Assembly (NCBI GenBank): GCA_036936605.1
Contig: JAUPFV010000004.1
Span: 89,988,334-90,052,333 of the forward strand
Source of the DNA: Limnanthes douglasii subsp. nivea
Lineage: Eukaryota > Streptophyta > Magnoliopsida > Brassicales > Limnanthaceae
Direction: 5' to 3'
Length of the DNA: 64,000 nt
This document shows positions 12,424 through 58,485 of the stretch, piece by piece (the first letter of the stretch is position 1; every line of letters begins with the position of its first letter). The position numbers were made by a program, and so were the translations under genes. Under the pieces are notes generated by a model. The model had not been told where the DNA came from. It did not search any database and was given only the letters and a program-made list of their open reading frames with translations.

Positions 12424-12432
12424 TAGTAGTTA
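12424..12432 (+). promoter_or_regulatory. Conserved stop at Tat-A protease/pol junction (UAG-UAG-UUA)
   Basis: Twelve codons after the first UAG comes DDSRE, the same spacing as in Tat-C, D and E. The second UAG occupies the place of CAR in the others and is explained by one C-to-T change from CAG. The inferred ancestral context is UAG-CAG-UUA. Confidence 0.6.
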
Positions 12433-15400
12433 CTGGACCCTTTAACCAATCAAAATTAAATAGATGATTCAAGGGAGGCACTTAGTTTTGTAATTACAGT
12501 TAAAAAAGTTGAAATTCATTGTTTGGAAGAAGGAAAAAGTGTTAGTGTTGAAGCTAAATTACCATTAAGGTTAAAACAAAAATTACTATTTTTTATCTAA
12601 CAATCTACATGTATTTTCATGATGCAATGAAGAGGTGACAAGAGTGCCAACTGATGTGATTAGTCACAAAATATTAATCCCATCTGATGTTGGGCCAGTG
12701 ATACAGAGAAGAAGGAATTTTTATAGAGAAAAATCTGAAGTGATTGTGCAAGAAGTAGATCAGTTAACTAGAATGGGCATATTAAGGAGTCTTAATACCC
12801 GCTTTGGATAGCTAATCCAGTATTAGTCAAGAAAAAGAATTGAAAATGACATATGTGTATTGACTTCACAGATCTAGATAGAGCTTGCCCTAAAGATCAT
12901 TTCCCAGTGCCTCGGATAGACCAACTCGTAGGCTCTACCTCAGGAAATAAGTTATTATCTTTATGGACGCTTTCTCTGGGTATAATCAGATACGAATGAA
13001 TTCGAATGATCAAGATCATACTACTTTTATTACTGATAGGGGGATCCATTGCTATAAGGTAATGTCGTTTGGATTAAAAAATGTTGGATCTACTTATAAA
13101 CGGTTGGTGAATAAGTCATTTACTAACCAAATTAGCAGAAGTATAGTGGTTTACATAGATGACAAGATGGTGAAAAGCCCTAATGAGGAAGATCACGTAT
13201 CTGATCTTCGAGAAACTTCTTTCAGCATAGAGGTTATCAACTTAAAGTTAAACCCTGAAAAATGTATATTCAGAGTCTGATCTGGTAAATTTCTGGGATA
13301 CATTATAATTGAAAAAGGGATTCAGACTGATCTGGGTTAGATAAATGCTTTATTAGCCATGGATCCGCCTCATAATACTAAAGAAATCTAGATACTAAGC
13401 AAAAGATTAGATGCTTTCAATCGGTTTATTTCGAGAACATCGGACAAGTGTGCTAAGTTTTTCCAAGTTTTAAGGAATGCTAAAGACTTCAATTGGTCTC
13501 GATAACGTGATCAAGATTTCCTTGAAATCAAGAAACATTTGTCTTCACCCAAGACATTGTTCAACCCTATTCAATGAGAGACTTTATATGTATCTGGTTG
13601 TATCGGAGTATGCAGTAAGTGCTGTGCTGGTAAGAGAAGTAGATAATTACCCTCGTCCGGTGTATTATACAAGCAAAAGTTTATTAGAAGCCGAGAAAAA
13701 GTACTTGAAGTTAGAAAAATTGGCTTTGACAGAGGTGATATCAACTAAGAAAATAAGACCCTACTTTCAAGCACACTCTATCACGGTTCAGACAGCTTTT
13801 TCCTTTGAAGAACGTGCTAAAAAGAGCTGACATATAAGGGAGATTGACTAAATGGTCAGTTGAGCTTGGAGACTATGATATCAATTTTGCACATTGAACT
13901 GCAATCAAGGCTCAAGTTGTAGATGAGTTTTTGGTAGAATTCCATACTAAGAGACCTTATGACTTAGGGTAATAAGTCTCATAAAGAGTGGGTAGTCCGG
14001 ACAAATGGTAGATCTAGTACGATGGGCTGTGGAGTTGTGGTTTGTTTAACGTCTCCTTAAAGTGACACCATGTACCAAGCCATATGCTTTGGTTTCAGAG
14101 CATCCAATAATGAGTCCGAATACGAAGCAGCCATAGTTGGTTTGAGGTTAGCTCAATTATGTGGAGCAAAAGTGATCAGGTTAGTAAGTGATTCTCAATT
14201 TCTTATTCATCAGGCTCAAGGGCGGTCTGAAACCAAAAAGTATCATTTGATAAATTATGTACAAGTACTTAAGGAAATAGCCACAAGTTTATGAGGCATC
14301 CAATATGAACATAGCCCTAGATCATAAAACATTATGGCAGATTCCTTAGCCACTATAGCTTACTCTAAATCATACCCTTGGATCCTTATGCAAGAATATT
14401 CTTCCATTGACTCAATTCAAGGAACGAAGGGTGAAGTTTAAGAGAGTATAAACATATCTAACTTACAATCCAAAGATTGGAGATACAAAATCTAATTGTT
14501 TATTACCAATGAAGTTTTACCTTCAGATAAGATTTTGGCTAAGAAAGTAAAATACAAGGCTCATAGTTTTCTGATGTTGAGAGGAGTTCTTTATAAAAAT
14601 TCTTTCAATAGATCTTTTTTGCGTTGCCTTGGTTTTGAATAATCTCAAAAACATTTTTCTGAATTACACGATGGAGAGGCGTCAACACATTAAGCTTATA
14701 AAGCTGTAACCATGAGAGTATTGTTAGCATGATACTATTGGCCTACTATAATGGCAGATGCTAAAGATTTGGTAAACAAATGTGATCATTGTAAAAAATA
14801 TGGAATGAAATTCATGTGCCGACAGTCCCAATGGAATCAGTATCTGAACCCATACCATTTGGTAGATGGGGACTATATTTAGTTGGGCCCCTTTCCATGA
14901 CCTATGGTGGTTGTCAAACTATAATTTCGGCCATATACTAATTTTCTAAGTGGATAGAAGCTGCACCATTATCTAGAATAACGTCATGAACAGTAATAAA
15001 ATTTATCCTCTCCAATATATGTTGCAGATTCGGAATTTCTAAACGCATTACTACAAATAATGGTCCTCAATTCGACAATAAAGACATGGAGGTATTTTTT
15101 ACCTTAAGAGTAATTCAACACTGACTCTCTTCTTCTTTTCATCCTCAGGTCGATAATCGGACAATTTCAAAGGGTTTGAAAAATAATTTGGAAGGAGCAG
15201 CGGGAAAATGGTCAAATTATTTGCAAGAAGTATTATAGGCCTACTGAACCACTCCTCATAGAGCTACTCATGAAACTCCTTTCGCTATTGTTTATAGAAT
15301 TAATGCAATTATACCTATAGAAGCTACGTTGCCTTTATTCAGAGTAAAAAATTATTCCGAACAAGGTAATGACATGGCTGTGAGAAGTCAGTTTAATCCA

Positions 15401-15694
15401 GTTGAAGAAAGAAGGGTGAAAGCACACTTGAGAACAATACACTACCAGGGTCTGATGAGAAGCAAGTTTATGTCGAAAATTAAAAGAAGAGATTTCCATG
15501 AATGGGACAAAGTGTTAAGAAAAGTGTTCTTGCATACCAAGGAGAAACTATTCAAAAAGCTAGCTCCGGATTGGGAAGGCCCATACATGGTATGTGAAAA
15601 GGTCAAGTAAAGAACATATAAACTTCAAGACAACGAATGTAACTTTTTACAGCATCCTTGGAATATTAAGTATCTCAGGTTATACTTAGAATAA
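12430..15694 (+). pseudogene. Tat-A pol: RT, RNase H, integrase (decayed)
   Basis: RT is at about 12690-13480, with the FSGYNQI motif and YIDD at 13152-13163. RNase H is at about 13980-14400, where the first catalytic Asp is replaced (RTNG instead of RTDG). Integrase is at about 14660-15694: a broken HHCC zinc motif, core motifs RWGLYLVGPLS and TTNNGPQFD (second catalytic Asp changed to Asn), loss of the segment holding the catalytic Glu between HPQ and DNRTI, and an intact-looking C-terminal module ending HPWNIKYLRLYLE. There are more than ten stops and several shifts. It is clearly dead. Confidence 0.85.
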
Positions 15695-22284: not shown

Positions 22285-22365
22285 TGATAAGGTAGTAGAT
22301 ATCCACAACAGATGTGAAGGGGAGATGTTAACTGAGCTTACGCAGTTAAAACATATCGAGCATCT
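22285..22365 (+). repeat. Tat-B 5' LTR, first part
   Basis: It begins TGATAAGGTAGTAGATATCC and matches 36331 onward. Tat-C entered after CATCT at 22361-22365. The uninterrupted partner near 36408 reads GCGTCTAACCACC, confirming the insertion point. Confidence 0.9.
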
Positions 22366-22846
22366 TGATGAGTCTGAATTCAGCATGCTCCCCGGAAGGG
22401 CAAATCAGCCTAAGTCTCTCTGAATACCGGACAGGCTACAAGCACATAAATCAGACAGATCATTCAGATCGGACAGGTCACTTCGAACACTGTAAAATTA
22501 AGGCTGTTCGAACTATGACTAAAGTACTAAAAAACCTAAACACTTCCTGACTAAGCTACCTGCCCTCCTACTTAGAACTCATGGGTCTTTAAACATGACC
22601 CGGGTCCATTAAACATGACCCGAAATCCCACAAGGGCCCAAACATCATACTATAAATACCCAACCACCAGCATTAACTATGGGTAATGAAACTTAACTGC
22701 TACCAAGCTGCTTAATTCTCTCTCCACCGTTAAACACCCTTATACCACCCTTAAACACCCTTACACCACCCTTAAACACCCTTACACCACTTTGAAACTC
22801 CACTTAAAATTACTAGCCTACCCTCATGCGATTATTTTCCACACCA
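22366..22846 (+). repeat. Tat-C 5' LTR (481 bp)
   Basis: It starts TGATGAGTCTGAATTC and ends TTTTCCACACCA. It includes a short tandem TTAAACACCCTTACACCACCC motif with one more unit than the 3' LTR. Confidence 0.95.
22651..22658 (+). promoter_or_regulatory. TATA box of Tat-C LTR
   Basis: TATAAATA followed by CCCAACC is conserved at 32717-32724 in the 3' LTR and in the Tat-A LTR. Confidence 0.55.
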
Positions 22847-22849
22847 AAT

Positions 22850-22919: not shown

Positions 22920-25241
22920 ATGAATCCGGATAATCCAGAGCTTCCACCAACTTTGCTCGAAGTGGTGGAAGAAAACGATGAGTATACTGTCCAAGAGCGT
23001 GACAGGTTAAAGCTTGAGATAGAAGCTCTGAGGGCTGAAAAGGCCAAAATGGGCGTGAAAGAAAAATCCAAGGCATCGGTTGTTCATCACACCGACAACC
23101 CTAGAGAGCCTGAGGCTTCGAAAACTCATGTGAGTACCAAAAAGACACATGCTAGTTCTAAAAAATCTCACCGGTCCAGGCCTGTGGAGAGCTCCGACTC
23201 AAGTTCAGAATCTTCGGGCAGCTCTTCGGACAGTGAGGGAAATGAAAAATCCTTGTCCTGTAGCAGTGATGAGGGTTGAACCAAGAAAAAGCAAAAGCAG
23301 GTTAAGAAATATTCGAGAAAAAGAGATCACCATGGAAGAATGAAAAGGCATATTGGAAAGGGGTCATCTCATAGCCGGAGGCATGTGGACCGGATGCTGA
23401 TGGATCCCTTTGCTTTCCACGATGAGCCATGTATCTTTGCAACTCCTAATGAGGATACCGTGTTCAGTCGTGGAAGGAATTGGAGGCAGTCTCCACTGTC
23501 TTCTAAAATCCTGTCCGGAAACCTCCCCAAGAGGTTTGACAGTACTAAGATGGAGAAGTACGATGTCAGTACTGATCCGGACAATCATCTGGAGCAATTC
23601 AAGAACTTCATGATGAACTTTGATGATGATGACAAGCTACTTCGTAGGGCATTCTCCCAATCCTTTACGGGGAGTGCTCTGAAATGGTACAATAGCCTGC
23701 CTCAGGGTTGTATTAAAGATTTTGATACGTTTTGGGTAGCCTTTCGAAGGCAGTTTGTGGGGAGTAAGGAGCTGAAGGGCAATGGAGACACAATAATCCA
23801 TTGTGCGCAGGAGCCAAATGAGTCATTGAAGGAGTATATAAGTCGTTTTGTGAATACAAAGAATGGGTTGGTTGATTGCTTCGAACAGGTGGCAATAGCA
23901 TCCCTAAGACAAGGCTTGAACCCAAGCAACCTGGCTGATTCGGTGACCAGAAAGAAGGCCATGACCTGGGGGGATTGCTAAATCAGGTTGGCAAGCAAAT
24001 AAACGTTGATGAAACAAAGAAAACCAGGGTGCACAGACAGGTGAGATCCACCCCGGTGGCACCAACTCCAAATCCAAATCAGTCCGGGAACAAAGCCAGA
24101 GAAACCGGACAGGGGCATGGTAGGGAAAAAGCTCAGTCTCAGCCAGGTTCTCCTGCTTAAAGTCAACAATCCAGGAACAAAAGAGGGCCATGGGTCCAAC
24201 CGGAGTGGTTCGCAGAACTTAAAGAAAGCGTGGCCACCATTTTCGATAAAACAAAAGATGAGGTACACTACCGGAGACCGGCAACCTTGTAGTCTCCCAG
24301 AGAGCATCGTAACAACTCCTTTTGCCAATACCACAATGATATTGGCCATACCACTGATGATTGCATAGCGTTGAAACAAGAGGTTCAGAACTTGATTGAA
24401 AGGGGAAAGTTGGGTGCATACGTTAAAAGAAGGGGAGGCAATAGGCCTGACAATACTCACCGCGTTGGTCCAAGTAATGCTGCCCCGGAGGGGGCCATGG
24501 TAATAGTTGAAAGGTTCGATGTGGAATCTGAGTACTTGGATCCTGATCCAACACGAAATAGGGTGGGTGCTATCAAGGAGTGTTCTAGGACGGTCTCCGG
24601 GCTCATTAAATTCTTCGGAGGGGACACTATGACTGCTCCTACTGCTTCTTCAAGAAAGAGGCATGTTCATAATTTAGCCTCCCAGCTAGAAGGAGGCATG
24701 ACATCTTATCAGTCACCAAACTCATTCCCATTCATAGTCTTCGATGAGGATGATTTAAGAGATATTGCTGGCCCTCATGAGGATGTTGTTGTCATAGGAG
24801 CATCTATAGGGGGCAATGAGATAAGGCGAATTCTGGTGGATACTGGAAGCTCTGCTAATATCCTTTTCCTAACCACTTACAAGAAAATGAAAAATCCAGC
24901 TGTAATTCAGAAGTCAGACAGATCGATCGTGGGTTTCACGGGCAGCTCGGCCGATGTGATCGGGGAGTTTGAAGAAGAAGTGTTACTGGGCAGGGGCCCT
25001 TTCAACAAAAATGGTTAGAATACTCTTCATCGTGGTGGATTGTCCCACTTGCTATAATGCTATTCTAGGGAGATCTTAGCTCTCTAGGATGCATGCAGTA
25101 GCTTCAACAGTCCATCAGTGTTTAAAGTACGCTGTTCAGGGACAGGTTGGGGTTGTCCGGAGCAGCCAAAAGGTTGCAAGAGAATGCTATGCCACTGCCT
25201 TGGCTCCACGAACGCCGGGGGCAGTCCGAATAAATGATCAA
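22920..25241 (+). pseudogene. Tat-C gag-protease (few disabling mutations)
   Basis: The polyprotein provides capsid, nucleocapsid and aspartic protease. I chose the ATG at 22920, which matches the Tat-A start. The N-terminal Ser-rich region is followed by the capsid domain (about 23520-23950; KMEKYD, ALKWYNSLPQG, EYISRFVN), a CHHC knuckle near 24319-24361 (C-x2-H-x4-H-x4-C), and the protease (24745-25010; VDTGSSANILFL at 24838-24873). Breaks are TGA at 23277, loss of one G in a G run near 23971, TAA at 24158, TAG at 24290, one extra A near 25010 and TAG at 25077 (Trp in Tat-A and Tat-D). The other residues look conserved, so decay is recent. Confidence 0.85.
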
Positions 25242-25250
25242 TAGCAGTTT
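25242..25250 (+). promoter_or_regulatory. Conserved stop at Tat-C protease/pol junction (UAG-CAG-UUU)
   Basis: UAG at 25242-25244 is preceded by CAA and followed by CAG-UUU. It is in frame with pol, exactly 12 codons before DDPRE. The same position holds UAG in Tat-A, D and E, so this is probably the normal gag-pro terminator with translational readthrough, not a random mutation. Confidence 0.65.
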
Positions 25251-28200
25251 GAGGGCCTTTATGGGGGTGAGGGTGAGATTGATGACCCCAGGGAGACCCC
25301 CGGAGTGTTGATCCCAATTGAAGAGGTTGAAACACATTGTTTGGAAGAAGGCAAAAGTGTCAAGATAGGGTCCAAGATGCCACCAATATTGAAACAAAAG
25401 ATGTTGAAATTTTTGAAAGACCATCAGCACGTTTTTGCTTGGTGCAATGCTGATGTTACTGGAGTTCCGTCAGAGGTGATATCCCATCACCTATCTGTCT
25501 GAAGAGATGTGGCACCAGTGGTTCAAAAGAGAAGAGCTTTCTCGAAAGAAAAGGTTGATGTCATAGTACAAGAGGTTGACAGACTCACAAAGATGGGGCA
25601 TATTAAAGAATCTCAGTACCCTTTGTGGACTGCAAATCCTGTCCTGGTAAAGAAGAAAAATGGCAAGTGGCGCATGTGCATTGACTTCACAGATCTTAAT
25701 AGAGCTTGCCCAAAAGATTTGTATCCGGTTCCCCGGATAGATCAGCTAGTAGACTCTACTTCTGGGAACAAACTGCTCTCCTTCATGGATGCCTTCTCCG
25801 GGTACAATCAGATCCAAGTAGATCCAAAAGATCAAGAACATACCACGTTTGTCACTGATAGGGGTCTACATTGCTACAAGGTGATGCCTTTTGGCTTGAA
25901 AAATGGTGGGGCTACTTATCAAAGATTAGTCAACAAGACATTTGCTGGTCAAATTGGAAGAAATATGGAGGTTTACATTGACGATATGATGGTGAAAAGT
26001 GTGGATGAGCAGTTGCACTTGTCCGATCTCCAAGAAACTTTTGCCAACTTGGCAAAAGTGAATTTAAAACTAAACCCTGAAAAGTATGTGTTCGGAGTAC
26101 AGTCCGGGAAGTTCTTAGGGTATATCATCAGTGAGCATGGAATACAGCCCGACCCGGACCAACTCAAGGCCTTATTCCAGATGGAGCCTCCTCGAAACAT
26201 TAAAGAAGTACAGCGATTAACGGGGACATTGGCTGCCTTAAACAGATTCATCTCCAGGTCTTCGGATAGGTGCGCTCCATTCTTTCAGACTTTGAAGGGT
26301 GCAAAGGGTTTCGAATGGACCCCGCAGTGTGGTGAGGCATTCAATGAAATCAAAAAACATCTCTCCTCTCCTAAAACTTTGTTCAAACCAGTTGACGGGG
26401 AGACCCTTATTGTGTATCTCGCCGTTTCAAGTTGTGCCATCAGTGCTGTGTTGGTAAGAGAGGTCGATGGTTGTCCCTACCCAGTGTACTACATCAGCAA
26501 AAGCTTGATTGATGCTGAGAGGCGTTACTTGAAACTCGAAAAACTGGCATTAGCTCTGGTGATAGCTGCAAGAAAAATGAGGCCTTACTTCCAGGCTCAT
26601 CCTATCGTCGTCCGGACATCTTTCCCTTTAAAGAATGTCCTTCAAAAAGCAGACATTTCAAACAGAATGCCGAAGTGGTCAATAGAGTTGGGGGACTTCG
26701 ACATAGACTTTGCCCCCCGAACAGCAGTAAAAGCCCAAGCTGTGGCTGATTTTCTGGTTGAATTCCACTCCGATAGGGATCCAGAGCAACCTACTGATTC
26801 AAAAGACAAGAAAGTGTGGATTGTCCGAACAGACGGAGGGTCTAGCACCATGGGATGTGGGGCAGGAATATGTCTCACTTCCCCATATGGGGACAGCATG
26901 TACCAAGCTATTTGTTTTGCTTTCAGGGCGTCTAATAACGAGTCCGAATACGAAGCAGCTATAGCTGGGTTGAAATTGGCCCACATCTGTGGGGCTAAAA
27001 GGGTCAAGCTTCTGAGTGACTCCCAGTTACTTGTCCACCATGCCTTAGGCCAATCTGAGGCTAGAAAGGAGCAGTTGGTAAAATATTTACTCCTCCTAAA
27101 AAATGAAGCGTTAAAGTTTAAAGCTGTTGTCTATGAGCATGTTCCCCGGGCAGAAAATGAGCTAGCAGACTCATTGGCAACAATAGCATATACGGAGTCC
27201 TACCCATGGATCCATGTGCTTGAAAGCCCTTCTATTCAACTCAGTGAGGGTGGAAAAGAGGAGGTTTTTGAAATACAAGTGAGCCGGCCTCAAGACTGGA
27301 GATCTCCTCTCATACAATATCTGTCCGATGGTATTATGCCCTCAGATAAGTCACAAGCCAGAACATTGAAACACAAGGCTCGTGGTTTCATTATGTTGAG
27401 AGAAGTGGTGTACAAAAAATCCTATAGTAAACCTCTCCTACGCTGTTTAGGGGATAATGAGTCACAGATGGTCCTCTCCGAATTGCATGATGGTGAGGGA
27501 TCAGCCCATTGTGGATTCAGAGCTTTAACAAGAAGAGTGTTACTCTCCAGATACTATTGGACAATCATGAAAGATGCTAAGGAGCTGGTAAGAAGGTGTG
27601 ACCCATGCCAGAGGTACAACAATGAAATTCATGTACCATCCATTCCCTTGGAGTCAATTTCTGAGCCCATCCCTTTTGCTCGATAGGGATTGGACTTGGT
27701 TGGGCCTCTCCCTGTGGCGTCCGGAGGGCGTAAAACTATAATTGTGGCCATTGAATACTTCTCGAAGTGGATAGAAGCAGCCCCCCTGGCAGGGACAACA
27801 TCAAAAGCTGTCATAAAATTTATTCTGTCCAACATATGTTGCAGATTTGGTGTCCCACAGAGGATAACAACAGACAATGGGCCACAGTTTGACAATAGAA
27901 AAATGGAAATCTTCTGTGCCTCAAGAGGTATACAGCACTGCTTTTCTTCACCTTTCCACCCACAAGCCAATGGGCAGGTTGAAGTGGCTAATAGAACTAT
28001 ACTGTCCGGGTTAAATAAAAATTTGGAAGGGGCTGCTGGGAAGTGGCCTAGTTATCTACAAGAAGTCTTGTGGGCCTACCGGACAACACCTGGGGCTGCA
28101 ACACAAGAGTCTCCCTTTGCCTTGGTCTATGGAATGGATGCAGTAGCTCCCATAGAGAAAACACTCCCTTCCTTTTGTATTCACAACTTCTCCGGACACG

Positions 28201-28529
28201 CTAATGAGATGGCAATTAGAAATCATCTTGATTTGATCGAAGAAAGACGGGTTAAAGCTCGTCTTAGAATTGCACACTATCAGGGCTTGATGAGAAGCAG
28301 GTTTGCTTCTAAAGTTAAAAGGAGAGATTTCCAACCAGGAGATAAAGTATTAAGGAAGGTCTTCTTGCATACTAAGGAAAAGCTCTTCAGAAAGCTGGCC
28401 CCAACTTGGGAGGGTCCGTATATTGTGGTTGAAAGAATCAAGCCTGGGACTTACTGGTTGGAAGACAAAGATGGCAGGGTCTTAAGTCACCCTTGGAATA
28501 TTGAACACCTTCGAATGTACTTGGAATGA
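25245..28529 (+). pseudogene. Tat-C pol: RT, RNase H and integrase (two nonsense codons)
   Basis: One frame of about 1090 codons copies element RNA and inserts the DNA. After a linker (FAWCNADVTGVP) comes RT (about 25620-26160; FSGYNQI, YIDD at 25974-25985), then the RNase H connection and RNase H (from RTDGGSSTMGCGAG near 26829 to about 27190). Integrase follows: HHCC zinc motif (HDGEGSAH..CDPC, about 27486-27610), core Asp in LDLVGPLP, Asp in TDNGPQFD, Glu in NGQVEV, and a C-terminal module ending HPWNIEHLRMYLE. It is interrupted only by TGA at 25500-25502 and TAG at 27684-27686; the latter replaces the Trp seen in Tat-A, D and E. The two open parts are 25509-27686 and 27690-28529. Confidence 0.92.
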
Positions 28530-31993: not shown

Positions 31994-32431
31994 AAAACAG
32001 CCAAGAAAGTTTTTGTTCTAGAGAGATAAAGCTCTGGGTGAAATTGTAGAGTAAAATTTGAGAGAGATAGTGAAAACAATGAAAAATGAATGAGAATTTA
32101 TAGTAAATGTGAAAAAAGGAGTTGATTCCTAGGAGAATCTGAAAAGTTGGGTAATGATTAAAAGACGGCGCTGATGTCATTATTGGCAATTAAAGAGGTT
32201 ACTTGTAAAAGAAGATGGTGCGAAATTCAAGGTGAAAAAACGACTGGAATAGCCAATCAGAATGCGACACGTGTCCCGCTAACTCTGGCAAAAACCGTTT
32301 GGAATTCGTAACGTTTAATCTATCCGAGTATACCCACAACTCTGTCCGGATTAAGAACCACTTCATTCAATCGGACTGTTTTTCAGTTCTTTGACAAGGA
32401 CACTTGTTCAAACATCTAAAAAAGGGGCTCC
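31994..32431 (+). other. Tat-C leader of the antisense gene and polypurine tract
   Basis: It is non-coding on both strands. The polypurine tract AAAAAAGGGGCTCC ends at 32431 directly before the 3' LTR. The promoter of the antisense gene should lie here or in the LTR, but I see no clear TATA box on the minus strand. Confidence 0.6.
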
Positions 32432-32902
32432 TGATGAGTCCGAATTCAGCATGCTCCCCGGAAGGGCAAATCAGCCTAAGTCTCTCCGAATACCGGACAG
32501 GCTACAAGCACATAAATCGGACAGATCATTCGGACCGGACAGGTCACTTCGAACACTGTAAAATTAAGGTTGTTCGAACTATGACTAAAGTACTAAAAAA
32601 CCTAAACACTTCCTGACTAAGCTGCATGCCCTCCTACTTAGAACTCATGGGTCTTTAAACATGACCCGGGTCCATTAAACATGACCCGAAAGCCCATAAG
32701 GGCCCAAACAGCATACTATAAATACCCAACCACCAGCATTAACTATGGGTAATGAAACTTAACTGCTACCAAACTGCTTAATTCTCTCTCCACCGTTAAA
32801 CACCCTTACACCACCCTTACACCACCCTTAAACACCCTTACACCACTTTGAAACTCCACTTAAAATTACTAGCCTACCCTCAGACGATTATTTTCCACAC
32901 CA
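32432..32902 (+). repeat. Tat-C 3' LTR (471 bp)
   Basis: It starts TGATGAGTCCGAATTC and ends TTTTCCACACCA, followed by the duplicated CATCT. Confidence 0.95.
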
Positions 32903-32907
32903 CATCT

Positions 32908-33452: not shown

Positions 33453-33476
33453 TTTTTTGCGTTGTATGTGGGAACT
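33453..33476 (+). other. Tat-B primer binding site, degraded
   Basis: The sequence reads TTGCG-TTGTATGTGGGAAC. It resembles the Tat-D site TTGGCGCCGTCTGTGAGAA with two missing bases and substitutions. Confidence 0.45.
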
Positions 33477-35150: not shown

Positions 35151-35159
35151 ATGGATATT

Positions 35160-41787: not shown

Positions 41788-42352
41788 GGCCAATATGTTT
41801 TGTAAGCACTATTTTTATGTAAGCCCTTGAAGTGTGCAAGGTATTTTTGTTATTTTGATCGGAAATGTTTGTGCAAGTCCCTAAATTTTGGCCAAAGCAT
41901 TTTGTAATTTTCTAATTGGATCTTGTCAAGTCCTTAGATCGCCCAATGCACTTTATATTATCTATCAGTTTATTAATATTGATTTACTTTTATCTATTCT
42001 CACCCTTATTTTTATCCGAACATAATTAAACATGATTTGTCTTAAGAGCAATTAAAATTTGATATACATGAGTCATTCGAAGGCAATACAAACTTGGTAC
42101 AGTTAGGAGATTTGAAGGTAATCCATTCGAAAGCAATAATAAGTTGATACACTTGAGTCATTCGAAGGTAATCCATTCGAAGGCAATAAAAACTTGATAA
42201 ACTTGAGCCACGTTTTCAAAGGCAAAGACAGTAGATTAATAAAAAATTGGACACCTCTCTAAAACCTCTGACGCTACTAGAGTAGGAAATAGTATGTCCT
42301 ATAATATTTACATTGATCAATAATAAATTAAAAATTTACAACATTAGTATAG
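41788..42352. other. Tat-E region between convergent genes
   Basis: A hairpin CCTTG-AAGTGTG-CAAGG at 41825-41841 lies just after the antisense gene. A tandem repeat with a period near 55-60 bp, built on CATTCGAAGGCAATA, spans about 42055-42215. The shared pol-downstream block is at 42252-42312 on the minus strand. Confidence 0.55.
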
Positions 42353-45300
42353 TCTAGATAAAACCTTAAATGTTCAACATTCCACGGATGCCTCAAAAGA
42401 TTACCTTGCCGATCAACCAGCTTGTATATTCCTTGCTTGATCTTCTCATACATAGTGTATGGCCCTTCTCAGTTTGGAGTCAACTTTCGTAACTTCCTAT
42501 ATTTGGTATACACAACATTTTTCTTAAATCTTTTTCCTCTATTTATATATTTGTTCTTCGTATTTTAAATGCATACCTACTCATCATCAAACCGTGGTAG
42601 TGAATGGTTCTCAATTGTAATATTATTCTCTTTTCTTTAATCAGATCAAAATGAGTTCTTATTGTAACGTCATTATTTTTTTCAGAATAATTTTTAACCT
42701 TGAAAGAATGAAGATTAGCTTTTATTGGTCCAATTCTATCCACCCTATAAACCAAGGTAAATGAAGATTCTTGTGTGGAAGTGTGTAAAGTGGTTCGGTA
42801 GGCCCATAGTACCTCTTGTAAGTAGTAAGGTCATTTACCAGTTTCTCCTTCTAAATTCTTTTAAAGTAACTTCAATACTTCTATTTTCCACCTCTATTTG
42901 TCTGTTGGCTTGAGGGTGAAAAGGTGAAGATAAGCAATGCTGAATTTCTCTCAATGCGCAGAAAATTTTCATACCCCTGTTGTTAAAATTGAGGGTCGTT
43001 GTCTGTTGTAATACGTCTGGAAATTCCGAACCTAAAACAAGTGTTGGATAAGATAAATTTAATTAATACTTTGAAATTCGTTTCAGAGAGAGGTGCAACC
43101 TCTATCCACTTTAAAAAATAATCAATAGCCAAAATAATAGTTAGACACCCTCTAGAAACCATCGGAAGGGGTCCAACTAAGTCAAGCCTCCATATTACAA
43201 AAGGTAATGTTTCAGATACTAACTCAACCAGAACCGCTGGTACATGTATTGTATTTTCATACCTTTGACATGGATCATATCATCTAGCTAACTCTTTAGA
43301 ATATTCCAAATAGATGGCCTGTAATACCCTGTCAATAAGACTCTTCGGGTCAAAACGTTATAATGGGTTGATCATTCCCCATCATGTAGTTCAGATAAAA
43401 CTGATTGGGACTCATCAGATCCGAGGCATCGTAATAAAGATTTACTGAAATAATTATTTTATAGAGAATCCCTCTTAAAACGAAAAATCCACGTTCCTTG
43501 AAATTTAACTTCTTGGTTAATCATTTATCTACATGTAGGATTATGTGATATGATATCTCCAATTTCGACTCATTATGGCTGATATTTAGAAATTCTCTTC
43601 AGCATCGATTTCCATTTCAAAAGTTGTCGCTACAAATGGACATTATTGTACAAGAATCCAAGGGTATGCTTCATAATATGCAATGGTGGCCAGAGAATCA
43701 GCCATCAAATTTTCCGATCTTGGTACGTGTTTGTATTTAACATATTTAAAACCAGTCTAAACTTCTTTCAATACCCTTAAGTATTTTACTAACTGATCTT
43801 TTTTGGTTTCAGATTGTCCTTGTGCCTAATGAATGATTAACTGTGAGTCAATCAACAATCGGTTTATTTTGGCACCACATATTTGAGCTAACTTTAGACA
43901 TGCGATAGCTGTTTCATATTCTGCTTTGTTGTTCGATGCCTTAAAACCAAACCATATAGCTTGGTACATGAATCCCCAAAAGGGGAAATTAAGAACACTC
44001 CAGCCCCACATCCCATCATATTAAATCCACCATCTATTCGAATTACCCATTCTTTCTCAGGCTTGTTAACTTAATATTCCCCATAAGATCTTTCCGAGTG
44101 GAATTTAGCCAAGGAAATTAGCTACAACTTGAGCTTTGATTATCGTTCGAGGAGCAAAGTCAATATCATAATCCCCTAATTTGATAGATCACTTAATCAT
44201 TCGACCTGACATGTCCTATTTTTGTAACACGTTTGTAAGAGGAAAATAAGTTCGAACTTGATAGAATGCGCCTGGAAATAAGACCTAATTTGTATGGCCG
44301 TTATTGCCAAGGTTAAAGATAACTTTTCCAAGTTAAGTTATCTTCTCTCAGCATCCAATAAAATCTAACTAATATAGTAAACATAGTGGGGATAGTTGCT
44401 AACTTCTCGAACTAACACTACACTCACATCATAATCTGACATTGCTAGGTAAATATAGAGTCTTTCTCCAACAATGAGTTTGAGTAGAATTCTCAATGAA
44501 GATAAATATCGCTTGATTTCGAGGAATTCTTTATTACAATTAGGACACCAATTAAAGTCTTTGGCATTTTTTAGTACTTGGAAAAACTATGCACACTTAT
44601 CTGATGATCTTGAAATAAACCTATTCAAAGCTGTCAATCTCTTAGTTAACACTTGAATTTATTTGGTGGTCCGAGGAGGATCCATAGCTAACCAAGAATT
44701 TAACTAATTTGGGTCAGCCCAGATCCATTTTCTCACTAATGATGTAGCCTAGAAATTTACCGGATCGGACACCGAATGTACACTTATCCCGATTCAATTT
44801 TAAGTTTATGGTTTCCAAGTTAGAAAAAGTTTATTAGAGGTCAAGTATATGATCCTCCTCCCTTGGGATTTTCACCATCATGTCATCAATATAAACTTCC
44901 ACATTTCTTCTGATCTGACTGGAAAATGTTTTATTGACCAATCGCTGGTAAGTGGCTCCAGCATTCTTTAACCCAAAAGGCATTACCTTGTAACAATGAA
45001 GCCCCTTGTCAGTGATGAATGTGGTAAGGTTTTGATAATTAGGATCCATCTGTATTTGACTGTACCTAACAAAATCATCCATAAAGGATAATAATTTATT
45101 TTCTGAAGTGGAATCTATCAGTTGATCTATTTGAGGCACAATAAAATAATCTTTGGGGCATTCTTTATTAAGGTCTGTAAAATCAGTGCACATCCGTCAT
45201 TTGCAAGTATTATTTTTTAAAAGCACCGGATGCACAACCTAAATTGGATAATGGTATTCTCGAATATGCCCCACATTGGTTAATCAATCCACTTCTTGGA

Positions 45301-45622
45301 CTATGGCTTCAAACTTTTCCTTAGAGAAATCTCTCATTCTTTATACTACCATACATGCATCGGATCGTACAGATATTTTATGGCAAATGATATTTGATGG
45401 CAGTCCAGTTGCATCCTCATTTCACCAAGCAAATACATGTAAATGTTTTAGATAAGAAGCATAACAATCATTCCTTCAATTGTGATGGCAGTTTGGTTCC
45501 AGTTCTGTCATTCTTCCCTTCTCCCATAAAATGTTTTCTACCTATTCTACCAGGATAACATCACTAGGAGTCTCTCTTGGATCATCTATTTTGCTCAAAT
45601 CCGAATAGGACTCTAGTAATTT
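42353..45622 (-). pseudogene. Tat-E pol: RT, RNase H, integrase (decayed)
   Basis: Read on the minus strand. RT is at about 45340-44430, with its best part 45193-44834 (FTDLNKECPKD, MPFGLKNAGATYQRL, VYIDDMMVK). RNase H is at about 44090-43560 (FGFKASNNKAEYETAI in 44011-43826). Integrase is at about 43330-42353: core motifs LDLVGPLP, TTDNDPQF and HPQANRQIEVENR keep the Asp, Asp and Glu. The C-terminal module ends HPWNVEHLRFYLD. It has numerous stops and shifts and is non-functional. Confidence 0.8.
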
Positions 45623-45625
45623 CTA
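45617..45625 (-). promoter_or_regulatory. Conserved stop at Tat-E protease/pol junction (UAG-AAA-UUA)
   Basis: On the minus strand UAG at 45625-45623 is followed by AAA-UUA, then by DDPRE after exactly 12 codons. AAA is one change away from CAA. Confidence 0.6.
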
Positions 45626-46903
45626 TTTTTTTTAATCACCACAATTTCTAGTGTTTTTGGATAAAGAAAGGTGACATAACATTCCTTAGCCACTTTTTGG
45701 CTGCTTCAAACCACCCTTACTTGACTTCCAACCGTATATTTCAAACACTAGTAAACAGTTGATGCTACTGCGTGCATCCTTGACAACCAAGATCTGCAAA
45801 AAAAACGCGTTGTATGAGGTTGAACTGTCTATTAACACAAACAAACCCCTTACTATTTTAAATGGTCATTTTCCTAACAATGCTTTGGCTTCAAATTCTT
45901 CAATTACTTCAGCAGAATTACTTGTAAACCCCATTATAGTCATATTGGACCGTTGAATAACCGAAGGATTTTTCATTTGTTCATAAGTAGATAAAAATAA
46001 AACATTTTTCGAGCAACCTGTGTCAATCAAAATTATTTGGATCTCATTGCCCTCAATAGATTCCCGTCTTACCACAACATCCTCATGTGCGCATGCAACC
46101 CCCTCGAGTCGTCTTCATCATATACCATAAAAGAAGCAGGGCTTTGATAGAGGTATGTAGATAGTTTCCCCTCCAATTATGTGGTCAAACCAACCACATG
46201 TCGTTTCCTGGAACGGCTTGATGGTGCTATTATTGTATCTCCTCCAAAAATGGTTAACGATTCGAAGAATTGGCACAATTTGGACACTTTTCCAGCACTT
46301 TCTGTCACCATATTGATTCAATTCCGATCTGGATCAAGATCCAATTACTTATAATCCACATCAAATTGATCAAGAATTACCATTGCACTCGCACTCTCTT
46401 GTTTAAATATTTCTATATTTTTCCTTCGGACATTAGGTGATGCAGTTTGAGCCCCACTTACATTATGTTGTGACCAAGCGCCCATTTTCCTGTTACCTCT
46501 GTGTGACATCACAAAAGTGGTTAGTTTCTCATTTTCAATCGACGTTTGTATCTTTTATTTTAGGGTAATACAATCTTTAGTTTCATGTCCTACATAATTA
46601 TGGTACTTGTAGAACTGTATATTTCGATTTTCTTTTAGAGTTTGGGTAGGTGTTGGCCTTTGGAATCGTGTAGCATTCTTGACCATTTCATAGATGGTGG
46701 CTATATTTTCAATTAATTTATGCATAATACTATGGTTGGCCCATTGATTTTCCTTTGGTCTTGACTGTTGACCCTGATTCGATTGGCTCTGTCTGGGGCG
46801 GTGAGAACCTTGCCCTGAGTCTCTAGGTCGATTACTAAATGTAGCCTATGACTAATTACTAGCTTATGAGACAGAGATTGTGGGTGCAAATTTATACTGA
46901 TGA
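45626..46903 (-). pseudogene. Tat-E gag C-terminal part and protease
   Basis: The minus strand shows a knuckle (YHNYVGHETKDC, C-x2-H spacing with a first-Cys change), an AMVILDQFDVD block, FGGDTIIAPSSRSRKRH, a degraded FDEDD..GPHED region and a protease core, LIDTGCSKNVLFL, at 46075-45866. Gag is interrupted by LINE-G at 46904-46919 and resumes at 63013. Confidence 0.75.
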
Positions 46904-50545: not shown

Positions 50546-50876
50546 TGATGAGTGAATAATTGTTTAGGGAATATATTTAGGATCTTTTTGCTAGATGTGA
50601 CTAGAGAGAGAAAGTGTAGAGAGATAAAGTAAGATTCAGAGAAAATATTATTCAATGCCCTTTTTTAGGCAAGTGGGTCACCCTTTTATACTAACATAAG
50701 GAGGACCCATTTAAGCTCTTAGTGGGCCGTTCATCACATATTAATGAGGCCCCTCTACTATTTTTATCTTTACACATTGGTCCCTTATCGACTATGAATA
50801 CTCTTTAATTACATCAAATGTTTATTCATTGCATTTTTACCCCTCTCATGGAGATCGGCGAATTCCGCCCTTATCA
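50546..50876 (-). repeat. Tat-D 3' LTR (left copy)
   Basis: On the plus strand it runs from TGATGAGTGAATAATTG to CGCCCTTATCA. Its partner is 61340-61670, of the same length. Confidence 0.95.
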
Positions 50877-51399
50877 GTAGCCCCCCCAGTCTTCGGGAGC
50901 TTCGTGAGCGGAGACTTGTGAAGAAGCCATCGCCACTCGTCCGATCTCTTATCAGGCTTCGGGCTCTGCAGGTTCTGACTGTCCGACGCTCGAGGCTTCC
51001 TCACTGGCGATACTCCCGCGCCTCCTACTCCTGTTCTGCTGAGATTTTCATCCCGGGCCTCTTGTGATGGGCCTATCCTTCTTTCCGATTTCGGTGGTGT
51101 CGGCCCATATCATCGATGGGTTTGTGATGAGTTGCTTATGTCAGCCCGTGTCAGTCAGTGGTCGACACGCGTCTTTGGCTAACGGGTCACCCCTCTGTCA
51201 GACTAGGCTCCTAGTGAGACTCTTCATCTTCCCGCTGTCTTTCCGTCGATTGGTATCCCCCGATCCTTCAATCCAGCCTATAAATACCCCAAGATTCTTA
51301 GTGTCTCTCAGAGGCATTTTAGAGAGAGAAAGCGTTGTCCGACCATTTCTAGAGAGAGAGAGCTTGTTCGACCCTACTTCGTTCTAGTATGTTCGTTGC
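50877..51399. other. Tat-D polypurine tract and antisense-gene leader
   Basis: The minus strand of 50877-50895 reads AAGACTGGGGGGGCTAC, the polypurine tract beside the 3' LTR. The rest is the 5' leader of the plus-strand gene, with a TATAAATA at 51280-51287 that could be its TATA box. A five-codon upstream frame, ATG at 51389 to TGA at 51403, overlaps the gene's own start. Confidence 0.6.
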
Positions 51400-54047
51400 A
51401 TGAAAACCGGACGTTCACAGAAAAAACCGACCAAGAAAAAGAAATCCGAGTGGAGCTTTGAAGAGTGGTCAAGTATTGGCGATCGAGCAGAGGAGTACCG
51501 ACGCGCTGGTCTGATCTGGGGGTCTAACTCCAAGCCTTTTGTTCCCGCTCCACTTCCTCACGATCCCGTTCTTGCCACCCCGGTTCCCGCAGAATCTTTC
51601 CTGGTATCCGATCTTCCGGTTTCTCCTATTCCCGAAGCTAGCCTGTCCCCAGAACCCATTATCCTTTCCTCTAGTGACAGTTCCCATTTTTCCGCCGTCG
51701 GGCCAAACAATCCGACCTTACCGCCCGTCAATTCGCCCGCTTCCCGACGTGCCCGTAAATCCACCTTCTTGATAATGGGAGAAGACGATCTATCCAAGTA
51801 CTCAGCAGGAGGTAATAGTCCCGAAATGGTTCAGCTTACGCCCTCGATTAGAGGGATTCGGACCGGTATTAACATTGCGGTCACTTTTTTAGGTTTGCCC
51901 AAAATGCGACTAACACCCGAGCAAGCGGAGGAGGCTCATAGGAACATGGCACGCGAGGCTGCCGACGCTTCTTCCTCCCGGGTCCGACCATCCGAAACGG
52001 ATGCCGCTACTGCCCGTAGCTCTAGCCAAGTTCCGACCCAAGAAGCTGGAGAGTCGGAAGTCGATGTTGCTCCCGCGGGGGTCTGTATTGCCGCTGCTGG
52101 TCACGCGGCTAACCCCCAGGATGATCCCTTGCCCGAAGCGGTTGTGGCTGCCATTTCCACCAAGTACTTCAGCTGGCTTCTAACCAGGGACGTGGTCTCT
52201 CTCTTCGAAGGGAAGTATCTCTACTTCCCCGAGGCCGATCATAGAGACTTACTGACCCGCTGGGGGATCCCTGAGTGTGTCAGCGTCCGATTCCCGACCC
52301 CAGGGGAGACCCCCGTCCACGTCAGACCCAGAGAGATTGTGGTGTTCACCGAATTGTTCAACTGGGGTTTGCGTTTCCCCTTGGACCCTGAGATCGCGCT
52401 CTATTTCAGCACTCTCCAGATCTGCCCGTCGCAGCTGACGCCGAATGCTTGGTATACCTTGATGTCCTGCATTATGGCTTCCCGCCTTTCTGGCCAGGTT
52501 ATGCCGATGGAGGAGTACATCGCCATGTCGGGTCTGTCTAAGTCCCCGAAATCCCCATTCTTCTACTCTTATCTTGGCAATAAGTGGAAAATTGTCAACG
52601 ACTTCTTGGAAGGGGACAAGGGGTGGAAGCATCGGTTCGTATTTCTGAGCGGGTGCTGGGAGAATGGTCTTCCTTATTCTCCGGAGAACCCGAGGCAACT
52701 GCTGCGGACCTGGGTCCATGATGGTACTACCTTCCCCTACAAATATACATTTTTTTTTTACTATACCTTTATCTACCGCTCCTTTGCGTAGTGTCGAAAG
52801 ACTGGCTGCAGGGGGTGAAGAAGGACCATTCGGAAGCCGCGGAGGTCACTTTCGAGGTGCTGAAAAACTACGCCCGAAGGAATTGGGGTCGGGGCATGCA
52901 CCGCACTTTTATGGATAAGAACTTGTTCATGAGCAACCTCTGGCGGTGCTCATCCGAGGCTCTTTCTATTGAACAGCTGCGGGAGCCTCCAAGTCTGGAG
53001 GACGTGCTTGCCCGAACCGGGCGCCCCGGGTACATACTCTTTCTGCCCAAGCGCAACAAGGCGCCCAGCAAGCGTCCAAAGTCAGAGGACGACGAGGCAG
53101 TAGGTGAACCGACCAGGGTCGCGGTGCCCGAGGCAGGACGACTGGACGCGAGCCATAATCCGGCCGTGGTGCAAAAGAGGAAAAAACGTGCAGAGGCGGG
53201 GGGGTCTAAGCCGAAGAAATCCAAAGCTGCGGTTGAGGATCGGGCGGCCGTCAGCGCGGAGGTGGTGGCTTCCAGGCCTAAACTCGTGGATCAAGTGGAC
53301 GACGGCGTAGATCCCGCAAGGGACGACGTTGTGTTGATCCCAGACGACACTGAGCCCCCCGAAGCCGAAGCTGCGAATCCGGACGCCCCTTCGTCAAGTG
53401 GCCCCAAATTCCCGGTGCTGACGATGCTCGGTAGCCCGCACTCCTTTCCTCTTCGGGGTACTGATGGACTTGCTCTGTCGCTATACAACCTGCTGGTTCC
53501 GGCCGCCTTGAAAGAGCGTCGAGCAAAGGAGCTTGGCAAAAACTTAGCCGCGGCGGAGACAAAGATTACCAGTCTTGCTGCGAAGGTCAAAACTGCCGAG
53601 GAGGCCCAGGCGTTGGCGGAAAGTCGAGTGGTTGAAGCTGAGAATCTCGCTACCGAAGCGAAAACGGCCGCGGACGCGGCGAAGCAGGTGATTGAGACAG
53701 CGAAGAAGGATGCGGAGGATGCGGTGAGCGTTGCGGAGACGGCGAGGAAAGCCGCGGAAGACCGCGCCTCATCTCTGGCGCAGGAGGTTCAAAAGTTGAA
53801 AGCCTCGAACGTCGCGTACATCAACCGATGTAGGCAATGGTCGGACAAGGAGACTGCGGATGCTAAAGCCGCATATGTGCTGTCACTCCATAACCGCTTC
53901 CCGGACCTTCGCCTCGGGTCGCTGTGGCTCGACGTTCCAGAGAAGGACTGGCCCGAGGGAGTCGATTGCGGGGAATCCGACGATGCTGGTGACGAAGAAG
54001 GCGATGAGGACGTGGACGAGGATGTGGATGAAGATGGGGACCAGTAA
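51400..54047 (+). CDS. Tat-D antisense gene (aORF), intact, two exons
   Basis: Exon 1 is 51400-52723 and exon 2 is 52792-54047. The 68-bp intron 52724-52791 has GT-AG ends, a T-rich stretch before the acceptor, and phase 1. Joined, it encodes 859 aa. Exon 1 has a Pro/Ser-rich N-terminal region and a domain recalling the Pfam 'putative gypsy type transposon' family (LFNWGLRFPLDPEIALYF, ICPSQLTPNAWYTLMSC, SRLSG). Exon 2 has a SNLWRC motif, a Lys/Arg-rich stretch that could be a nuclear signal, an Ala/Glu-rich coiled coil (about 53490-53810), VLSLHNRFP and an acidic tail. It converges on pol. The best start is uncertain because an upstream ATG (51389) aligns with the Tat-C MFTAR start but is out of frame. 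The molecular role is unknown. Confidence 0.85.
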
Positions 54048-55179: not shown

Positions 55180-58100
55180 CTATTCTAGATACAGTTTTAA
55201 GTGTTCAATATTCCATGGTAGCCTTAGGAGATGTCCGGACCGATTCTGCAGGCGGTACGTCCCGCTCTTAATTTTCTCGACGATTTCGTATGGTCCCTCC
55301 CAATTGGGGGCCAGCTTTCCGAGGCTCTTGTCCTTTGTGTGGAGGAACACGCGTTGTAAAACCTTATCTCCGACCTTGAATTCCCGACGGCGGACTTTGG
55401 CTGCGTATCGACTTCTCATCAAAGTTTGGTAATGTAAAGAATTCAAATGGGTGCGGTGCCGCTTCTCCTCTATGAGATCGAGCTCGAGTCGTCTGCTGTC
55501 GTCATTCGTCTCCTCCTGGTAAGTTCCGACCCTGAAAGAAAGAAAAATAGATTCCGCGGGAGTGACCGCGTCCATGCCATATACTAAAGCGTAAGGCGAC
55601 TCTTGAGTGGCCGTGCGGGGTGTGGTTCGGTAAGCCCATAATACTTCTTGCAAGTAGTCTGGCCACTTTCCGGCCTTTCCCTCGAGGTTCTTTCTGAGGC
55701 CATCCAGAATGGTTCGGTTCGTTACTTCGACCTGACCGTTGGCTTGTGGATGGAAAGGGGCAACGAAACATTGTCGAATATTATGAGTGGTGCAGAACGC
55801 CTTCATCTCCGCACTGTCAAACTGTGGCCCGTTGTCCATAGTCAGCCGCTGAGGCACCCCGAACCGGCAACAAATGTTCGCCCAAATGAATTTGACAATA
55901 TCTTTGGTTTTCGTGGCGGACAAAGGCTCGGCTTCGACCCACTTGGAGAAGTAATCTACCGCTACGACGATCGTCTGCCTTCCTCCCGATGCCTTTGGTA
56001 ATGGTCCGACGAGGTCGATTCCCCAGCGGTCAAAAGGCAGTCCTTCGGATATGGATTCCAGAGGAGCTGCGGGTACGTTGATGGCGTTACCGAACCTTTG
56101 ACATGTATCGCAGGTTTTTACTATGAGTCTTGCGTCTGCTGTTATTGTCGGCCAGTAGAATCCCGCCAGAAAAATTCTCCTAATCAGAGCCTTGTATCCG
56201 CAATGCACCGCGCCTTCCCCGTCATGTAGTTCGGACAAGATTACCTGGGATTCGTCGAAACCTAAACATCGAAGCAGGGGCCGGCTATAAGACTTTTTGT
56301 ACAGCACATCCCCTAAAAGGACGTAGCCCCGCGCTTTGTTGCGCAATTTTCGTGCCGAAGCGGTGTCGTCGGGAAGCCGACCTTCAGCTAAGAAAGAGAT
56401 AATGCCCTGGCGCCAGTCAGAAGTTACGACCGAAGAGATCTGGCATGCGATCTCAGGTCGGTTAGCTAACTCATGTCGTTTAATGATGGACGGGCTTTCT
56501 TGTTCTATCACCCATGGATAACTGGTTGAGCAGGAAATCGTTGCCAAAGAATCCGCTGCGGTGTTTTCGCTTCGCGGTATATGCTCGTAAGTAATTTTGT
56601 CAAAGGAAGCGGCCAGAATTCTTAATGCCGCAAGGTACTGTACCAGGTGTTCCTTCCGAGCCTCCGCGCTTCCCGAGGCTTGGTTTATTAGAAGCTGGGA
56701 GTCGCTTATGAGCCGTACCTGTCTTGTCCCGCATACCTGTGCCAACCGTAACCCTGCCAGAGCGGCCTCGTATCCAGCTTCATTATTCGACGTGTGGAAA
56801 CCAAAACAGATAGCATGGAGCATGCTAACACCCGAGGGAGTTATGATTTGGACTCCCGCCCCACAACCACTAACGTTTGCTCCTCCATCTGTGCGGACGG
56901 TCCACTCGCCCTCTGCTTTCTCTTGTGATCGGGCTTCCTGTTCGGGTCGCTCTGAGTGAAACTCAACTAGAAAATCAGCCAAGACCTGGCCTTTGATAGC
57001 TGTTCGGGGTTCAAAGTCAATGTCGAAATCCCCCAGTTCTACCGACTACTTGGATAATCTCCCCGACATGTCTGGTCGTTGAAAAATGTATTTTAGCGGA
57101 AGTGATGTGCGGACAACAATAGGGTGGGCTTGGAAGTACGGTCTCATTTTCCGCGCTGCTGTCACCAGAGCCAACGCCATTTTCTCCAGTTTGAGGTACC
57201 GAGTTTCGGCGTCCAGCAAACTTTTGCTCACATAGTATACCGCGGTCGGAGCCGGCCCCGATTCGCTGATTAGAGCAGTGCTGACCGCATAATCCGTGAC
57301 CGCAATGTAAAGGAAAAGGGTTTCACCCGCCGTCGGTTTGGTGAGGCGGTTCGGGGTCGATAGGTACTCTTTGATCCCTAAAAAAGCCTAGGTACACTCA
57401 GGAGTCCAAACAAAAATTTTCGCCTGTCGTAGGACCTGAAAAAACGGAGCGCATTTATCAGACGATCGAGAAATGAAACGATTTAAGGCGGCCAGACGCC
57501 CGGTCAGAATCTGAACTTCCTTCACACTCCGGGGAGGCGTCATGTCGGCCAGGGCTCGGAGCTGAACAGGGTCTGCTTCAATTCCGTTCTCGCTGACGAA
57601 GAACCCCAAAAATTTTCCTGATCGGACCCCAAAAGAACATTTCTCCGGGTTTAGCTTAAGGTTAATCCCTCGTAGATTACCAAAAGTTTCCCTGAGGTCG
57701 GCGAGATGGGCTTCATCGGAACCGCTTTTGACCAACATGTCATCGATGTAAACCTCCATGTTTCTCCCGATCTGGCCTTCGAATGTTCTGTTTACTAGCC
57801 TTTGGTATGTCGCGCCAGCGTTTTTTAGCCCGAAGTGCATCACTTTGTAACAATATAATCCCCGACCCGTTATGAACGTAGTATTCTCCTGATCCGCGGC
57901 ATGTAACTTAATTTGATTGTACCCGGCATAGGCGTCCATAAACGAGAGTAGCTTGTTGCCCGACGTCGAATCTACCAGCTGGTTGATCCTTGGCATCGGG
58001 AAAGGGTCCTTCGGGCAGGCCCGATTGAGATCAGTAAAGTCCACGCACATCCTCCATTTCCCGCTCTTCTTTTTAACCAGCACGGGGTTAGAGATCCATA

Positions 58101-58482
58101 AAGGGTACTTTGCTTCCTTGATATGTCCGACGCTGGTCATCCTCTCAACTTCCCGCAGAATTACTTCCGCTTTTTCGGGGGAAAAAGCCCGACGCTTCTA
58201 GACGATTGGTCTGATATTTCTGTCAATAGTCAACTTGTGAATCGCGAAGGATTCCGGTACCCCCGTGACATCCCCGGAGCACCACGCAAACAAGTCTAGG
58301 TTCTCTCGTAGGAGGGTTAGTAGCTGTGCCCTTAGGGTTGGCGAAAGGTTTACCCCGACCCGCAGACATTGCCCGTCTGCAAAAGAATGTAATTCGCACT
58401 CCTCGTCAGTCGTCAAAAGGCTTGGGGCCTCCCGGGGGTCATCCACCGGTTGCGATCCCGGAGGCACCCCCCTTAATTGCTA
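55180..58482 (-). pseudogene. Tat-D pol: RT, RNase H and integrase (three TAG codons)
   Basis: It lies in one minus-strand frame, the same as gag-protease. RT is at about 58100-57580 (FTDLNRACPKD, YIDDMLVK). RNase H begins with RTDGGANVSGCGAG near 56905. Integrase has an HHCC motif (HDGEGAVHCGY..CDTC), core Asp in IDLVGPLP, Asp in TMDNGPQFD, Glu in NGQVEV, and a C-terminal module ending LPWNIEHLKLYLE at 55180. Extra stops are TAG at 58200-58198 (CAG in Tat-C), 57390-57388 (probable CAG) and 57048-57046 (Trp codon in Tat-C). The 600-aa stretch 56982-55180, with RNase H and integrase, is open. Confidence 0.92.
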
Positions 58483-58485
58483 TTA
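58474..58485 (-). promoter_or_regulatory. Conserved stop at Tat-D protease/pol junction (UAA-UAG-CAA-UUA)
   Basis: On the minus strand UAG (58482-58480) is followed by CAA-UUA, the classic leaky-stop context, and lies 12 codons before DDPRE. The preceding UAA (58485-58483) could have been CAA before one C-to-T change. Confidence 0.7.

Follow-up and report, generated by a model that had tools for sequence, protein, structure and literature searches.

A conserved UAG codon between gag-protease and pol in Tat-type retrotransposons of Limnanthes douglasii: a candidate type I readthrough site

How the long terminal repeat (LTR) elements of plants make gag in excess of pol is mostly an open question. 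A December 2025 review lists two main strategies, namely ribosomal frameshifting and a second, short transcript, and a search of its text did not find the word readthrough (PMC12786077). The question is raised by a 64,000-nucleotide stretch of Limnanthes douglasii subsp. nivea (G000:C334:89988334-90052333, in a host genome, G000, of 1.78 Gb), here called the window, in which Tat-type Ty3/gypsy elements A, B, C, D and E are present, C and D as full-length yet broken copies and A and E as frameshifted remains. C and D carry a UAG codon at the boundary between protease and pol. Judged from sequence, this UAG is very probably a programmed leaky stop of the type I (tobamovirus) readthrough class that would balance gag-protease against pol.

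Element C (22363-32902, plus strand, LTR repeats 94.8% identical) retains gag-protease remains at 23472..25211, spread over more than one frame in this copy, followed by an in-frame UAG at the protease/pol boundary (25242..25244), the 3' hexamer CAGUUU (25245..25250), which has one mismatch to CARYYA, and a pol frame (25245..28529) for reverse transcriptase (RT), RNase H, a second RNase H and integrase that is broken by further stops. Element D (50546-61672, minus strand, LTR repeats 98.8% identical) has an open gag-protease frame of 943 codons (58486..61314), a junction UAG (58480..58482), the hexamer CAAUUA (58474..58479), which is the exact tobamovirus context (motif: PMC3542737), and a pol frame (55180..58479) that is broken in this copy. 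The UAG of this D copy is immediately preceded by a UAA (58483..58485), giving UAA-UAG; the UAA is private to this copy among the 30 loci read, the codon being GAA in the remaining 29 loci from that search.

The first-pass annotation of the window had described five such junctions, of which C and D stand in frame, A and E are decayed and B is not an example. Its UAG positions were correct (starting at 12424 and 12427, 35778 and 25242 on the plus strand, and at 58482 and 45625 on the minus strand), as were its spacing of exactly 12 codons from UAG to DD(P/S)RE in A, C, D and E and its hexamers, UAGUUA (A), CAAUUA (B), CAGUUU (C), CAAUUA (D) and AAAUUA (E), each with zero or one mismatch to CARYYA. 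The AAA of E is not private to it, as an E-like copy elsewhere (L125, G000:C223:80341455-80341605) shares UAG-AAA-UUA. The motif is not rare: 50 of the 1,706 TAGs on both strands of the window are followed by a hexamer within one mismatch of CARYYA, which is the chance level, and nine exact UAG-CARYYA strings occur, including those at the B and D sites, so that the exact string alone proves little. The first-pass annotation held that a shared position speaks against independent nonsense mutations; the window alone is weaker evidence than was claimed, and copies in the host genome are the better evidence.

Four protein queries returned, at first look, 54,690 candidates for the C post-stop region, 55,515 for the D post-stop region, 86,279 for the E RT and 48,839 for a fused-frame relative from Vaccinium; the best 150 places were scored for each, and the sets partly overlap. 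Open pol frames of 1,095 codons were found in 17/150 scored places with the C query (1,095-1,096 codons in 18/150) and in 37/150 with the E query, frames of 1,099 codons in 27/150 with the D query, and clusters at 1,095 and 1,101 codons among the 150 scored with the Vaccinium query. The longest frames comprised 1,096 (C), 1,538 (D), 1,095 (E) and 1,101 (Vaccinium) codons. The 1,538-codon case is a D-type copy (L083, G000:C1:137720394-137720891) in which a deletion takes out the stop and fuses protease to pol; the second longest frame in the D set (L084, 1,183 codons) still has the UAG.

Junctions were read in 30 C-type and 30 D-type loci, including the window's own two, in 20 further pieces, in 40 plus-strand loci and in 20 loci from the Vaccinium search. 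With three duplicates set aside (L065-L067, repeating L015, L021 and L033) these amount to 137 distinct places, picked by similarity and many of them for an open pol frame, hence not a random sample. UAG is present in 133, UAA in three (L027, L095 and L140) and the L083 deletion in one, and a sense codon occurs in none (0/137). Two loci, L057 and L063, have the motif but shift by one base after it. Among 58 copies scored for open frames on both sides (499 codons before the stop and 579 after), 11 were open throughout, with UAG between the two frames in all 11. Coding sequence in the same frame thus lies on both sides of the UAG, as expected of a type I readthrough site.

A less selected count came from an exact-flank pattern, GATCAANNNCAGTTTGAGGG, in which the stop position is a free NNN. 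It matched 1,594 places in the genome, 1,530 of them with TAG, and the 100 places listed comprise 93 TAG, 4 TAA and 3 TAT. A second pattern, CAAGAANNNCAATTAAGG, matched 368 places, and the 100 listed comprise 88 TAG, 3 TAA and nine other codons, some of which are perhaps unrelated matches, the pattern having 15 fixed bases; its reversed control gave 0. The three TAT places cluster within 17 kb (G000:C1:6441721, 6447913 and 6458608) and are perhaps one local duplication. TAT encodes tyrosine, the same residue that plants insert at the UAG of tobacco mosaic virus (TMV).

Conservation extends beyond single families. Eight sublineages keep the UAG: A, C, D, E, F (the 1,101-codon type), G (L141-L144), H (L110) and I (L112). 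The hexamers of D, G and H are exact CARYYA, and those of A, C, E, F and I have one mismatch. C, D, F, G, H and I all have 22 codons between the protease motif ARECY and the stop, and from UAG to DDPR there are 12 codons, or 14 in F. Fifteen C and fifteen D copies, all open on both sides, were compared pairwise. Third codon positions are only 0.31 identical over the 80 codons upstream of the stop, and agreement in codons +3 to +12 is 0.20, 0.45 and 0.43 at positions 1, 2 and 3, whereas no pair differs in the UAG or in the first two positions of codons +1 and +2. Over the 23-33 codons before the stop, third-position agreement among C, D, F, G and I is 0.09-0.48, so most, though not all, pairs are near saturation there. 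The synonymous rate (dS) between C and D is undefined upstream; over codons +1 to +44, three pairs gave a dS of 1.4-1.7 and a nonsynonymous rate (dN) of 0.55-0.57, values that lend weak support to coding downstream of the stop.

In the hexamer that follows the stop, A at the second place and U at the fourth are found in 8/8 sublineages, and U at the fifth in 7/8; bases -2 and -1 are each A in 7/8. Leucine occupies codon +2 in five sublineages and is UUA in all five. Elsewhere in pol, UUA accounts for 9/60 leucine codons in D and 20/101 in C, and the contrast suggests that selection acts on the RNA as well as on the protein. The four resolved stops of pol itself (UGA-CACUUG, UAA-CAC, UAG-UUUGUA and UAA-ACUAUU) are not in CARYYA context.

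If the UAG is leaky, most ribosomes would terminate there and release gag-protease, while a minority would decode it, in plants probably by means of a tyrosine tRNA and with the 3' hexamer, CARYYA or a variant one change away from it, favouring the event. Ribosomes continuing in the same frame would produce gag-protease-RT-RNaseH-integrase, and the outcome would be a surplus of gag over pol from a single unspliced RNA. What the sequence shows is the position and frame of the UAG, its conservation over many copies and across diverged sublineages, and the absence of a conserved nearby AUG or an intron-like gap; the occurrence and level of readthrough, the inserted amino acid and the gag:pol ratio as the function under selection are inferred. 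In plants, a UAG in TMV context was read through at 32% in transient assays and at 6-10% in stable lines, the inserted residue being tyrosine. Readthrough was lost when the first 3' base was changed to G and was lower with UAA or UGA in place of UAG; a joint change of the 5' base and the third 3' base lowered it by what the authors call "more than 0.5-fold" (PMC2754532). By these TMV-context rules D and G should leak well, whereas C and F (CAGUUU) and E (AAAUUA) deviate from CARYYA.

Several observations weigh against a leaky stop. The support comes from sequence, and in the many-copy families C and F the hexamer is CAGUUU, which differs from CARYYA at one base. Sublineages A, E, H and I number one or two copies each, and copies of the same family are kin, so copy counts are not independent events. 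The pattern counts require exact flanks and hence favour young copies. The listed places include UAA (4/100 and 3/100), the sense codon TAT (3/100, first pattern) and other codons (9/100, second pattern), some of the latter perhaps unrelated matches. Conservation also runs past the hexamer, the tenth base after the stop being G in 8/8 sublineages. Finally, fused-frame relatives are found among the gene models of Cuscuta, Ipomoea, Rhynchospora, Fagus and Vaccinium.

Those relatives came from two protein searches. The protease region of D matched 62 proteins, mostly from Cuscuta and also from Ipomoea, Rhynchospora, Fagus, Alnus and Cannabis. An ARECY-like motif is present in 61/62; two relatives end no more than 27 residues from the start of the motif (Alnus P0003 at 27 and Cannabis P0016 at 15), and the others continue for at least 61. 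The first 130 residues of C-type pol retrieved one protein among 110 candidates, the fused frame from Vaccinium. Gene models may hide or invent stops, which makes protein relatives weak evidence in either direction. Taken as they stand, fused frames elsewhere imply that some Tat-like elements can do without the stop, and continuous junctions in relatives imply that it was gained or lost within the wider group. Variation of this kind has been described: Vicient (2025) reported one gag-pol open reading frame (ORF) in 37 Retand clusters (59%) and two in the rest (PMC11963269), and Neumann (2019) noted that some groups are split, with gag or gag-prot in the first ORF and the remainder in the second (PMC6317226). 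No relative was found among 401 stretches matching the pattern in viral contigs. Four RT loci in prokaryote genome contigs, from metagenome-assembled genomes, showed 29-38% identity and were not used. The UAG that the first-pass annotation described at the protease/pol boundary holds in 133 of 137 host-genome junctions, and relatives from other plants show fused frames; its scheme of gag-protease by termination and pol by readthrough best accounts for the C, D, F and G families here, while the idea that the whole lineage must work in this way is not supported.

Three other explanations would accommodate a stop at this boundary. A spliced pol messenger, as in Ogre, would use an intron to remove the stop from some transcripts, with the AG of UAG as a possible 3' splice site, and we consider it unlikely. 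Ten upstream GT positions are common to C and D, as is the AG at the stop. However, there is no stop-rich gap, and pol is open from the first codon past the UAG and shares the frame of protease; the 30 nucleotides ahead of the UAG form no U-rich tract (T 0.16-0.17, pyrimidine 0.37-0.38), and splicing alone leaves the hexamer and the choice of UUA unexplained, as well as the preference for UAG, introns ending in CAG too. It is more doubtful still that these are dead families in which the UAG is an inherited nonsense mutation, spread in non-autonomous copies by a helper. A defective founder is compatible with the copy counts alone, and gag-pro-only families are known (PMC9744471), but the identical mutation would have had to arise at one position, 22 codons beyond ARECY, in each of the diverged sublineages, the gag-protease and pol sides remain open in part of the copies, and no stop-free version turned up among the scored places, barring the copy with the 1,538-codon deletion frame. 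That ribosomes reinitiate, or initiate internally, on pol past the stop is permitted by the two-ORF layout and is hardly credible, given that the first in-frame Met of C loci lies at codon 45 (36/39) or 53 (3/39; three of the 39 loci repeat a place), after the conserved DDPRE, and that 24/24 D loci have no in-frame Met within 79 codons.

A structure 3' of the stop gave no consistent signal, folding z ranging from -2.2 to +1.7 in windows of 60-110 nucleotides (8 sequences) and from -1.2 to +0.9 in 140-nucleotide windows (4 sequences), under a folding model without pseudoknots. The junction does not fit a type III (gammaretroviral) site, the base after UAG being C, A or U and not G, with no consistent structure in these folds. 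With the same frame on both sides, no conserved nearby AUG, no stop-filled gap, no U-rich tract and no consistent structure, type I readthrough is the simplest account of the junction. For the Tat-type elements of this plant as a group, we regard it as reasonably likely that they share one ancestral UAG-CARYYA switch, the tobamovirus signal, between gag-protease and pol, held by nucleotide-level selection across sublineages whose third positions have diverged, and of an origin independent of RNA viruses.

Membership of the Tat lineage was judged from domains. Tat elements are marked by the order GAG-PROT-RT-RH-INT with an extra RNase H, and this order and the extra domain are present here. In Pfam searches, C pol matched RVT_1, RT_RNaseH and RVT_3, then rve; D matched gag above cut-off and an aspartic protease below the curated cut-off, with RVT_3 and rve in pol. 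Both elements have an antisense ORF between pol and the 3' LTR, at 30620..32017 (minus strand) in C and at 51388..52791 (plus strand) in D, which fits the Retand clade, 97% of whose clusters have TRP28 / Transposase_28 (PF04195) in the antisense ORF (PMC11963269). Transposase_28 is the only family listed for the two ORFs at E 10, through weak matches (C, E 0.0029, 18.3 bits; D, E 0.039, 14.6 bits) below the cut-off of 26.2, and the ORFs are 45% alike over 199 residues. An ORF at 17854-18603 had no Transposase_28 match in Pfam at E 10. The ORFs behind the antisense ORFs (29068-30498 and 52722-54047) have only weak coiled-coil-like matches.

The LTR repeats of C lie at 22363..22846 and 32429..32902 (plus strand), and those of D at 50546..50878 and 61340..61672 (minus strand). 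Self-comparison places a tandem array with a unit of ~91 bp at 54240-54954 in D, in the interval between the antisense ORF and pol. The remains of A (11042..15691, plus strand) and E (42352..46761, minus strand) both include gag-protease, RT, RNase H and integrase, with many frameshifts in A; A has UAG-UAG and then UUA (12424..12429), and E has UAG (45623..45625) and then AAAUUA. As junctions they stand only in part: the UAG is present, and protease (ending in ARECY / AKECY) is read in another frame, an indel separating the two.

Element B (32905..36953, plus strand) is a gag-protease-only element flanked by two repeats (32905-33435 and 36409-36953) that are 83.5% identical. Its gag-protease is closed by UGA-UAG (35775..35780), which is not a pol junction as had been proposed: no RT follows, the second repeat begins at 36409 and the DDPR cited downstream sits in another frame. 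No RT match occurs on the plus strand of the window beyond element C. UGA-UAG-CAA-UUA in B retains a leaky-type hexamer with no pol downstream. Gag-pro-only non-autonomous families are known in wheat, namely Sabrina_SA and WHAM (PMC9744471).

Other repeats fill parts of the window. An element at 2613-10850 has repeats at 2613-4544 and 8877-10850 with main blocks 94-99% identical; its gag frame is interrupted by a UAA (5824-5826), no Tat RT match lies inside, and by eye it looks like an Athila-type copy with pol deleted. Adjoining element E, at 46915-50555, lies what by eye is a long interspersed nuclear element (LINE), its two long frames showing a zinc knuckle and an endonuclease-like start. 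An RNase H-like piece, also recognized by eye, lies at 61542-62579, and an extra Tat-type gag fragment at 63005-63552 on the minus strand.

A conserved candidate type I leaky stop in well over 1,000 copies within one genome makes the gag/pol question directly testable, and the copies would offer translation studies a large natural set of one-base CARYYA variants. If the reading is true, a readthrough switch present in thousands of genomic copies would have arisen independently of the RNA viruses that share its signal.

Those viruses, the tobamoviruses and benyviruses with type I UAG-CARYYA, have the same stop, hexamer and plant host and likewise no clear 3' structure (PMC3542737), and A-UAG-CAA-UUA of element D is the exact tobamovirus string (PMC3542737, Table 5). 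The present case differs in being an integrated retrotransposon and not an RNA virus, in a stop that divides gag-protease from pol, and in sublineages with the one-change variants CAGUUU, AAAUUA, CAUUCA and UAGUUA. The gammaretroviruses also use UAG readthrough to serve the pol of an LTR element. Theirs is type III, with UAG-G and a compact pseudoknot (PMC3542737), whereas here the hexamer is of type I and protease precedes the stop. Ogre elements have two ORFs divided at the same domain boundary (PROT/RT), but with a spliced inter-ORF region averaging 274 bp (PMC6317226) in place of a single stop without a gap. Soybean SIRE1 is likewise a plant LTR retrotransposon with reported stop codon suppression, but belongs to another superfamily (Ty1/copia), with the stop at a pol/env junction before an env-like gene (PMC2829016).

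A measurement of readthrough at a Tat gag-pro/pol junction was not found in the literature searched, from which most subscription papers were absent. Readthrough in a related element had nonetheless been suggested: a 2009 paper named rice gypsy-type elements, citing RIRE2, as candidates, the verified plant cases being viral (PMC2754532). RIRE2 is gypsy-type and has an antisense ORF after pol, like Grande and Retand (PMC11963269, PMC7264820). The kind of switch is therefore already known and a relative already suspected, and the novelty lies in how deeply the site is conserved and in its precise signal.

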